A DNA stretch of 64,000 bases from NCBI GenBank assembly GCA_018654745.1, contig JABILA010000026.1, positions 1-64,000 on the forward strand, in the 5' to 3' direction. Positions 42,518 through 46,060 of this stretch are shown here, piece by piece (position 1 is the first letter of the stretch; every line of letters starts with the position of its first letter). Source of the stretch: Alphaproteobacteria bacterium. Its GTDB lineage: Bacteria > Pseudomonadota > Alphaproteobacteria > UBA2966. The notes beneath the pieces are model-generated. The model did no database searches and was not told where the DNA came from. It was given only the letters and a program-made list of their open reading frames with translations. A program made the position numbers and the translations under genes.

Positions 42518-42657
42518 AGGTTGCAGCTTTTCTATATTGCATAATCACATAGCCGTGCTCGTGCTTGACACGGCTATCCACGTCTTGGGCATTTAGGACT
42601 GAATGGATTAACTGTATACAGCCTTAGTCTTTCTCAGAGAGAATAATAGGTCAGAAC

Positions 42658-43551
42658 ATGATAATCGAAGGCTACGGATTAACATTGACCTCGCTGCCAA
42701 ATATTTCAGAATCGGTTCCGGGAGCCAACCTCAAGCAGCATGACTTGCTTCTTGAACTGATAGCATTTGCCGAGTCGATATTTCCTGAATTAAATGTCGA
42801 AGGGCAAGAAACCCTTGAAGAACAACAGAAGTTGCTTGCTTTAGTTACGTTGGTCAGGTTGCAGGAAGTTGTCCAAGCGATAGCAATTCTTGCTGCGCAC
42901 GGTGCCCGAGAAGAACTAAAGTCAAATTTCCGTATTTTCCTGGATGCGTATTGGGTACATGCTAATATCTGCAATGATGTTGAATTTATAGGTCCTTATC
43001 TTCGCACCGACGACAAAGCCCGCTTAAAACTTCTTAATTCAGCTAAACAACACAGTGGTCCCGTGTTTCACAAAGTGAACGAACTTGCTACCCCCGAACT
43101 AAAAGGTGAATTGGAGCAACGAATAAAGGATGAAGGAATTCTGGAATTCCAATCTCAACGAAATGCGCAAAATGTTGGTTGTGGGGAAATATACAACTCA
43201 ATGTTCAGACTTTGGAGCGCCTCTGTCCACACCACACCTAGATGTTTAGAGAATTATATCCAAATAGATGACGACGGAAAACCAACTTCAATTACCCACC
43301 GACCAGACCCTAAAGCGACTAATCAACTGGTCTACGATGCAATCCACTTTTTCATAAAGTCGCTCAGTGGGACGGGCGAAGTTTTTGATTTAGGCTTGGC
43401 GGTCAAGTTGGACGATTTTGAAAACCGACTAGAGGCAGTCCAGAAAGATGTTAACTTAAGTCAAGATAGAGCTTCCATCGTTACTCATATTCTTGACACC
43501 ATATTTGGCCTATTTGGATATCAACTCGCCAAACTTCCAAAACATCGGTAA
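42658..43551 (+). CDS. DUF5677-like protein of unknown function
   Basis: 297 residues, mostly helical. The middle LKSNFRIFLDAYWVHANICND and IYNSMFRLWSASVHTTPRCLENYI resemble DUF5677-type proteins, where an Arg-rich helix and a Y-x-x-x-x-x-x-VH motif recur; this is from memory. Base composition is visibly lower in GC than in the flanking liv and MaoC genes, with codons such as AAA, ATA and TTA, suggesting horizontal acquisition. It is convergent with the protease gene, their stops only 23 bases apart. Role unknown; possible member of a defence or stress module. Confidence 0.6.
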   Translation: MIIEGYGLTLTSLPNISESVPGANLKQHDLLLELIAFAESIFPELNVEGQETLEEQQKLLALVTLVRLQEVVQAIAILAAHGAREELKSNFRIFLDAYWVHANICNDVEFIGPYLRTDDKARLKLLNSAKQHSGPVFHKVNELATPELKGELEQRIKDEGILEFQSQRNAQNVGCGEIYNSMFRLWSASVHTTPRCLENYIQIDDDGKPTSITHRPDPKATNQLVYDAIHFFIKSLSGTGEVFDLGLAVKLDDFENRLEAVQKDVNLSQDRASIVTHILDTIFGLFGYQLAKLPKHR

Positions 43552-43574
43552 AACGAGCACCTTCCATAAAGTGA

Positions 43575-44402
43575 TCAGGGCCAACGTCGGTTGATCTCAT
43601 CGAGCAAGTTTTCGAAAATGCTTTCCGGTCCGTGGCCAATAATTTTCCGGTTCGGCAGGTCTGTTTCCCAAAACGCGACACCGATGAGCTTGTTTTGCCT
43701 GTGAGAATAGCACCCATTCTCCTGCTTCTTCACAAGGACGCGCCATATCCCACCACCGCTGGTCCCTCCATACGAGGCAGGAAGTTTGAAATTTGGTCCT
43801 GGATTTGGTTGAAACGTAACGATGTCGAAGCCATTCAACGTTACAGTTGAAATTACATTTCCTACGTTCATGAGTCCGCTTATTTCTTGGACTGCTTTTT
43901 TATCTTCTATCCGTAAGGGGGGAGTTAGATCCTGTATCGCGCCTGATACGGCTTCGAAGCACTCTTCGTCTACGGGGACAGAGGTAAATGCTCTTGTCTT
44001 TCCAATATCCAAATCGACAAAGGTTCCCAAGGAAGCTAAATTTTCTGCATGCTGATCAGGCAATGGAATAAAAGCTAAATCTGGCCCGTCAGCTGACTTC
44101 GGTGTGGCGCTGAATATTATTGAGTCTGACACGAATTCAGGCACATCTATTTTGAACTGCTGCCTCGTTGTCGAGACTACTGGGTATAAGAGTATCCCAA
44201 TTTCATTTTGTGTCGCTACCGCCTCAAAGACATGACCGCAGGTCAATATTCCTCTCAAATTTCGACATTTGACTAGAGTTCCAGATCCAAATAGCACCGG
44301 CGCAGCAGGGTTTGCTATTTTCAAAAAGGAAATTGTACTTGGAGCGATATTCGCATCCATTATTGGCCCAAAATCAAAACTCATATTAAATTCCTCTATC
44401 AA
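43575..44402 (-). CDS. Trypsin-like serine protease domain protein
   Basis: 275 residues. The chymotrypsin-like triad is readable: FGSGTLVKCRNLRGILTCGHVF with His about 57, DGPDLAFIPLP with Asp about 108, and YGGTSGGGIW with Ser about 215. There is no signal peptide, so unlike HtrA-type proteases it is cytoplasmic. The ATG overlaps the stop of the upstream DUF2971 gene as ATGA, so the two proteins are translationally coupled and likely work together. Low GC for this genome. Cytoplasmic trypsin-like proteases are known as effectors in several bacterial defence systems; that link is inference here. Confidence 0.72.
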   Translation of the reverse strand: MIEEFNMSFDFGPIMDANIAPSTISFLKIANPAAPVLFGSGTLVKCRNLRGILTCGHVFEAVATQNEIGILLYPVVSTTRQQFKIDVPEFVSDSIIFSATPKSADGPDLAFIPLPDQHAENLASLGTFVDLDIGKTRAFTSVPVDEECFEAVSGAIQDLTPPLRIEDKKAVQEISGLMNVGNVISTVTLNGFDIVTFQPNPGPNFKLPASYGGTSGGGIWRVLVKKQENGCYSHRQNKLIGVAFWETDLPNRKIIGHGPESIFENLLDEINRRWP

Positions 44403-45307
44403 GTTTCACTGAATACCAAACCATATTGGGAAGGGTCTGTTGAAGCTTGAAGCTGAGTAGCGTGTGAAAACTTGGCAGCCAAGATTTCTTGAATCTCTGC
44501 TTTGGCGTCACTGGAAATTCGACATCCAAAAATAATTCCGGAAACTTCTTCAGGGAAGATTTTGTAGTCCACATACCCTTGATAAACTAATTCTGGATTA
44601 CGGAATTTCGATATCATTCGCCATTCTTTCTCATACTCCCAAGCAGTAGATTTGGTGGCTGCGAGTCTGTGAAAATGATGAATTGTTCCAAGTGGTTTTT
44701 CAGCAAACAAGTCCTCAATCAACTCATCCAAAGTTGCCCAGGCAGGCATATCAGGTTGATATTGTACAGGTGTCGCCGCGCAGAAAGCAGTATCCAATTC
44801 CGGAAGACAACGAAACTTTATGACTGCCCCAGTATGTGAGGCTGCATAGTGAGACCACATCAACAAATCATCGTATTTTTCCGACATACAAAAAATGCAC
44901 AAGCCAAAAAGGGAATCGCGAACAAATTGATTCTTGGATTCCAAGTTTCCTTGCACCTTTTGATATCCTTCTATTGCTGAAGGCCTAACGATTTCGTCAA
45001 TATATTCGTTGATCTGCGCAGGGTCGCCTTTCCCCATAACATCCAAGAGATAATTGAATGCAGCTACAGTCGTAGAATCGGCGACGACCTCTTGTTTCCT
45101 ACCGTCCTTAAAGTGAGTCCGCATTTTCTTGACCACTGCGTCTACGTATTTTTCTTCAGTGAATGGAAACTGCAGATCGAACTGAACATCAAAAGGATCA
45201 TTAAACAGGCGCGGTGAAGACCAGCGTACTTTCTCTGTGGTCAGTATAGCTTTGGCCGTTTCTGCTGATACATATTTATAAAAGTATTCTCTGTCGTGAG
45301 TTATCAT
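44399..45307 (-). CDS. DUF2971 protein
   Basis: 302 residues. The family signature SPRLFNDPFDVQFD (about 31-44) is present, then GLCIFCMSEKYDDLLMWSHYAASHTGAVIKF and YEKEWRMISKF in their usual order. DUF2971 has no firmly assigned activity to my knowledge; members often occur in accessory and defence-rich regions. It is the upstream partner of the cytoplasmic trypsin-like protease gene (four-base overlap). AT-richer than the flanking backbone. Confidence 0.82.
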   Translation of the reverse strand: MITHDREYFYKYVSAETAKAILTTEKVRWSSPRLFNDPFDVQFDLQFPFTEEKYVDAVVKKMRTHFKDGRKQEVVADSTTVAAFNYLLDVMGKGDPAQINEYIDEIVRPSAIEGYQKVQGNLESKNQFVRDSLFGLCIFCMSEKYDDLLMWSHYAASHTGAVIKFRCLPELDTAFCAATPVQYQPDMPAWATLDELIEDLFAEKPLGTIHHFHRLAATKSTAWEYEKEWRMISKFRNPELVYQGYVDYKIFPEEVSGIIFGCRISSDAKAEIQEILAAKFSHATQLQASTDPSQYGLVFSET

Positions 45308-45595
45308 CGCTTCCTCGGTCTACTTGACGGAATTCAGGTACAGATTACTTTTGATTTGGTTTCCCCCGTGGATAATCTCTCTGGCCGCCAGTTGTTCCTG
45401 CGGGTTAGTTTTGTGGCAAATGGGAAATATGATGACCTGCATTCTTCGTGCCAGCCACCATTATTCCGAGGCGAGTCGAAAGAATTTGGTAGTCGTAAAT
45501 ACGACACTCACCGTTTCAGGAGTCGCCAGATTTGCAAAATAGACTTCCGCCAAAACTGGAGCCAGGCACGAAGAATACCAGGCACCGTTTTTTGG
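45308..45595. other. Non-coding stretch between the DUF2971 gene and the MaoC gene
   Basis: About 290 bases without a supported gene. Two overlapping plus-strand frames exist, but one is mainly the complement of the MaoC gene and neither resembles a family. It should include the promoter of the DUF2971/protease pair and mark the right border of the AT-richer block. No direct repeat flanking the block was recognised by eye. Confidence 0.35.
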
Positions 45596-46060
45596 CTATT
45601 CGTACAGCACAGCCATGGTTTCGGCGATCAGGGCAGGGCGTTCCTGGCCGTCGATTTCGACGCTGACTTCGGCGATGACCTGGTGGCCGCCGCTTTTGTG
45701 TTCTTCGACAGATTTCAAAGTCAGGTGGCCGCGGACTTTTGATCCGGCGGGGACCATGTTCAGAAAGCGCAATTTGTTGCCGCCGTAATTCACGGCATGG
45801 ACAACGCTTTCGACCTGATAGATTTCATAATTCATCATCGGGATCAGTGACAAGGTCAGATAGCCGTGGGCGATTGTGCTTTTTATAGGCAGTTCCTTTT
45901 GCGCCCGTTCGACATCGACATGAATCCACTGATGGTCACCGGTCGCATCGGCAAATTTGTTGATGCGGTCCTGGTCGATGGTCGTCCAGGTGCTTGTGCC
46001 CAGCACACTGCCGACAGATTTTTTCATCTCTGCAATTGTCGCAAAATTATTGATCGCCAT
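45596..46060 (-). CDS. MaoC-like enoyl-CoA hydratase
   Basis: 154 residues from ATG 46060, preceded by GGAGAA at good spacing; the track's 194-residue start is upstream of that site. Single hot-dog fold with the MaoC/NodN motif FADATGDHQWIHVDVERA (catalytic Asp and His), then IAHGYLTLSLIP. It likely hydrates a 2-enoyl-CoA. It follows the flavoprotein gene on the same strand, 37 bases after its stop. Confidence 0.88.
   Translation of the reverse strand: MAINNFATIAEMKKSVGSVLGTSTWTTIDQDRINKFADATGDHQWIHVDVERAQKELPIKSTIAHGYLTLSLIPMMNYEIYQVESVVHAVNYGGNKLRFLNMVPAGSKVRGHLTLKSVEEHKSGGHQVIAEVSVEIDGQERPALIAETMAVLYE

Follow-up and report, generated by a model that had tools for sequence, protein, structure and literature searches.

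In Hachiman and AVAST, a trypsin-like protease activates a gated MBL pro-nuclease, and the same pairing of protease and nuclease occurs in Lamassu and DRT variants, with Canu as the variant that carries a caspase (PMC12799240). Candidate systems are also listed in PADLOC, where a PDC label marks a phage defense candidate only (PMC11514479). The stretch analyzed here (the window) comprises 64,000 nucleotides of an Alphaproteobacteria bacterium contig and contains a locus that resembles the Hachiman and AVAST pairs, with a candidate effector gene directly upstream of the gene for a likely cytoplasmic trypsin-fold protease. In contrast with the nuclease-protease pair of Tuck 2025, the upstream gene encodes a DUF2971 protein for which neither Pfam nor a PDB fold search gave an MBL match, and the protease is a free-standing domain of 275 aa rather than one fused to HamA, Avs or LmuA. 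Because it lacks both an MBL nuclease and such a fusion, the locus is not a pair of the Tuck type, but by analogy it could still work like one. It is best read as mobile, probably defensive cargo in a variable slot, composed of the following features.

42521..45595, no strand: variable segment from the livM stop to the MaoC stop; similarity to a congener stops at 42520 and picks up at 45596.
42658..43551, forward strand: DUF5677 protein, 297 aa (PF18928, E 2.5e-16, above the Pfam cut-off).
43575..44402, reverse strand: S1 (chymotrypsin-fold) serine protease by its triad and predicted fold; 275 aa from TTG 44402 or 269 aa from ATG 44384.
44382..44402, reverse strand: junction as read from the sequence, with the DUF2971 stop TGA at 44401-44399, AGAGGA at 44397-44392 and ATG at 44384-44382; alternatively a TTGA overlap.
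44399..45307, reverse strand: DUF2971 protein, 302 aa, first gene of the operon; PADLOC PDC-S31 / PHROG 1762 by profiles and model.

The three open reading frames (42658-43551 forward; 43575-44402 and 44399-45307 reverse) were re-found where an earlier note on this DNA had placed them. They fill an AT-richer block between livM and the MaoC gene, which that note had called accessory; its G+C content of 41-47%, against 50-57% on either flank, and the different content of the same slot in a congener agree with that description. In the congener genome, similarity to the window extends up to 42520, just past the livM stop, and begins again at 45596, where the MaoC gene has its stop. The slot between them is occupied instead by two other, unrelated genes (L127:4324-6235), neither of which matches a Pfam family; one resembles, by eye, a membrane-anchored signal-peptidase-type protein. 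In two genomes from another genus of the same family, similarity passes from livM directly to the livJ-type gene. Because the congener and the genomes of the other genus differ in this slot, the block is horizontally exchanged cargo, separate from the transporter and hydroxylase operons, and the site is variable among relatives rather than a conserved part of a metabolic operon. The livM-MaoC slot seems to be a small hotspot for cargo genes. Neither a tRNA nor a convincing flanking repeat was found around the block to mark the boundaries of an element, and the rest of the source genome was searched for single proteins or families only.

The DUF5677 gene is convergent with the other two genes, and 23 nt separate the two stops, the gap that had been described earlier. 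No DUF5677 relatives were found near any of the DUF2971 or protease loci examined, and one distant plasmid match was obtained. As it has no recurring tie to either DUF2971 or the protease, the gene is excluded from the proposed module and is probably independent cargo.

The first gene of the operon has been catalogued before. Its product matches Pfam PF11185 (E 1.5e-8, above the cut-off), five PDC-S31 models of PADLOC-DB 2.0 (best E 3e-42, with residues 5-300 on profile positions 5-256 of 259) and phrog_1762 (E 1.8e-45), for which PHROG lists the function as unknown. By these profiles the protein is a PDC-S31 member, and the earlier description of it as an orphan domain of unknown activity was an understatement given its existing entry as a defense candidate. 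The likeness extends to the full-length profile match and to the family's occurrence as prophage and plasmid cargo. The difference is that the PDC-S31 label, which going by PADLOC naming we take to be a single-gene candidate, covers one gene, whereas in the window the operon also includes a downstream protease gene. A literature search found neither a tested member of PDC-S31/DUF2971 nor a DUF2971 experiment.

Of 399 genomes sampled from the phylum, 69 (17%) have a member of the DUF2971 family; the family also occurs at 254 IMG/VR loci and in 351 plasmid records, yet just 2 of 50,697 phage records contain it. This contrast fits cargo of prophages or host islands better than core phage genes. 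In 35 of the best 80 IMG/VR loci, DUF2971 lies at most 2 kb from a contig end, against 18 expected. The family is mostly single-gene cargo of prophages, plasmids and genomic islands. In single loci it adjoins genes for SIR2_2, FRG, KAP NTPase, integrase or resolvase. Direct adjacency to SIR2_2 was seen in two separate settings with opposite gene order (L055:52-1866 and L056; L231:1311-3568), and an independent DUF2971-SIR2 pairing is possible. At a prophage contig end, an FRG-domain gene lies 36 nt beyond DUF2971 (L035:5929-7572). On a Vibrio plasmid (L007:3983-7269), DUF2971 is followed after 48 nt by a YiiX-type NlpC/P60 cysteine hydrolase and then by a DUF4365 gene, and several Vibrio plasmids carry a DUF2971 match of the same score. 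A peptidase beside DUF2971 was considered as a general rule and set aside, as this neighbor did not recur in the other loci examined. Around prophage DUF2971 genes, PADLOC matches were not clearly commoner nearby than farther off among the top 25 families listed, and within those families a few methyltransferases dominated both sets.

The residues N36, D37, M150, W151, H153, Y154, K219, W223, E226, E228 and R230 are invariant in 68 sequences with a mean column identity of 17%, an invariance that is partly by construction, as the scan patterns used for collection covered MWxHY and WxYE. The motifs NDP, MWxHY and K...W.YExExR are all present in the window protein. These 11 invariant residues, mostly polar or aromatic, suggest that DUF2971 is an enzyme. 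The structural model, although confident (pLDDT 89.2, pTM 0.83), gave no significant match in a PDB fold search, with none below E 0.8, and its best matches in BFVD were mostly uncharacterised or unnamed phage proteins (E 0.01-0.08). An ADP-ribosyltransferase fold was raised by the motif order, since the first strand and helix of DUF2971 are arranged around a YKY motif in an order similar to that of DarT-type enzymes. The comparison with the DarT profile was negative (probability 0.2%), and the PDB fold search lent no support either; the ADP-ribosyltransferase CteC appeared among its non-significant matches (E about 1-3). The window protein is also longer than most of its relatives in the intervals 36-151 (115 against a median of 91) and 183-219 (36 against 26), although six intervals were compared and both lengths fall close to the margin of the family's range. 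The longer intervals are compatible with cleavable insertions.

The predicted fold and an invariant triad uphold the assignment of the second gene as a trypsin-like protease, whose match to Pfam Trypsin_2 (E 0.036) is below the Pfam cut-off. The triad is H57, D108 and S215 (numbered from the TTG), in the contexts GILTxxHV, PDLAF and GxSGG. All three residues are invariant in 14 aligned sequences and in all 6 of another alignment, so the complete His-Asp-Ser triad that had been read from this protein alone is conserved in its relatives as well. The AlphaFold2 model (mean pLDDT 85.6) has 66 fold matches in the PDB at E <= 0.001, the best at 1e-6, and those listed are S1/HtrA or viral chymotrypsin-like proteases. 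With HtrA/DegP/DegS, SplA and the mammalian S1 proteases it shares the chymotrypsin fold and the triad; unlike them it has no visible signal peptide and no PDZ domain, and identity in the structural alignments is about 11-17%. Inspection by eye reveals no hydrophobic leader, in line with the cytoplasmic site of action that had been proposed. A weak profile match to the LmuA-type defense trypsin (E 0.013) was rejected as generic, as the same profile has matches in 153 of 299 genomes, the E. coli and B. subtilis controls among them.

Nineteen relatives of the protease were found, in genomes and, in one case, in a Nostoc phage; pattern scans of viral contigs returned no close relatives. The surroundings of these genes are varied, with no constant neighbor. 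One relative, in L019, adjoins an HNH gene, and others stand, by eye, beside a formate dehydrogenase-like gene (L016) and a recombinase (L025). In L003/L010 and L031 the relatives are split over two frames and apparently decayed, and one of them adjoins a transposase-like ORF. A further relative (L024) adjoins a KAP NTPase (L024:5845-9081) that is homologous to the KAP NTPase beside DUF2971 in L202:471-3632 (27% over 703 aa), with one locus for each.

At the junction of the two genes, an ATGA overlap had been reported; the letters in fact read TTGA, an overlap that implies a TTG start for the protease at 44402. An in-frame ATG at 44384 lies 14 nt past the DUF2971 stop and has AGAGGA about 7 nt ahead of it. 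The closest relative of the protease, in L019 (42-43% identical), starts near the position equivalent to this ATG. Because of the preceding AGAGGA and the better fit to the L019 start, the ATG appears to be the likelier start. With either start, the genes are contiguous on one strand and form a predicted two-gene operon. The proposal that the two products are made together is therefore retained as co-transcription judged from gene layout, but the ATGA coupling on which it had been based is not.

The combination of DUF2971 with this protease was seen in the window alone. The protease-family profile had no match near the best 80 prophage (IMG/VR) DUF2971 loci, and neither it nor a simple S1 motif scan gave one in 60 cellular regions around DUF2971, each roughly 6 kb long; the DUF2971 profile re-found 54 of these 60. 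Conversely, the DUF2971 profile matched at none of the 19 protease-family loci (200 kb in total). The check proposed in the earlier note, a search for DUF2971 adjacent to S1 proteases in other genomes, thus yielded no second case in the loci sampled, and the pair is not a conserved system on these counts. Its absence from all sampled loci leaves two readings: a rare or recently formed pair, or two independent cargo genes. Of the suggested sensor-effector immunity module, a probable defense flavor survives through the PDC-S31 assignment, whereas the pair as a conserved system does not.

The account we favor, at somewhat less than even confidence, is that of exchanged defense cargo in which DUF2971 is the effector and the co-transcribed protease is its controller, most likely by acting on the DUF2971 protein itself or on its trigger. 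DUF2971, the first gene of the operon, is the most likely effector because its 11 invariant residues point to an enzyme. Infection would switch on cleavage, and cleavage would unleash DUF2971. Neither gene shows an evident sensor domain. The defense role is probable from the PADLOC candidate label and mobility. We infer an anti-phage function, with DUF2971 as effector and a protease-DUF2971 interaction, and the proteolytic link is drawn by analogy. The hints for that link, each of them weak, are the tight junction, the precedent of Hachiman and AVAST, the two longer DUF2971 segments and the homologous KAP NTPases. The two genes may form a dedicated immune module. A more specific form of it, a rare module in which an infection-responsive, free-standing cytosolic trypsin-fold protease cuts inhibitory insertions in a DUF2971 pro-effector, is unlikely.

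Nearly as likely as the proteolytic-control account is that the neighbors are unrelated. The two would then be independent cargo genes side by side, DUF2971 acting alone, probably in defense, and the protease being an orphan from a family scattered mainly through proteobacteria, with incidental co-transcription. Such independence agrees with the counts of 0 of 140 DUF2971 loci with the protease and 0 of 19 protease loci with DUF2971, with the occurrence of both families without a constant partner and with PDC-S31 understood as a single-gene label; it sits less easily with same-strand genes that overlap or lie 14 nt apart, their junction carrying a ribosome-binding site; this spacing is tighter than that of most DUF2971 neighbors. 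A candidate effector and a protease in a tight operon, within an AT-rich mobile setting, would also suit a toxin-antitoxin-like system in which the protease degrades DUF2971 in uninfected cells and its loss or inhibition frees the toxin. DUF2971 is usually alone, however, so it normally needs no neutralizing partner, and the protease family is usually alone as well; we consider this arrangement quite improbable. A non-defense role, such as protein quality control or small-molecule metabolism tied to the adjoining branched-chain amino acid transporter, draws on the position of the block directly after the livGFHM-type operon. It is already disfavored and is given the smallest chance of all, as in the congener the transporter and MaoC genes are retained around different cargo, and in the two genomes of the other genus similarity leads directly from livM to the livJ-type gene.

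DUF2971 is a widespread, mobile defense candidate with no close structural counterpart among solved proteins, and it has apparently received no study. Should its pairing with the protease be incidental, the locus would nonetheless point to a cargo site with exchangeable content and to two mobile protein families that await study. If the unlikely module with cleavage of inhibitory insertions is real, DUF2971 would represent a new effector class under proteolytic control, beyond the MBL nucleases that are paired with trypsins or caspases. The locus provides a concrete case for asking whether proteolytic effector activation extends beyond MBL nucleases.
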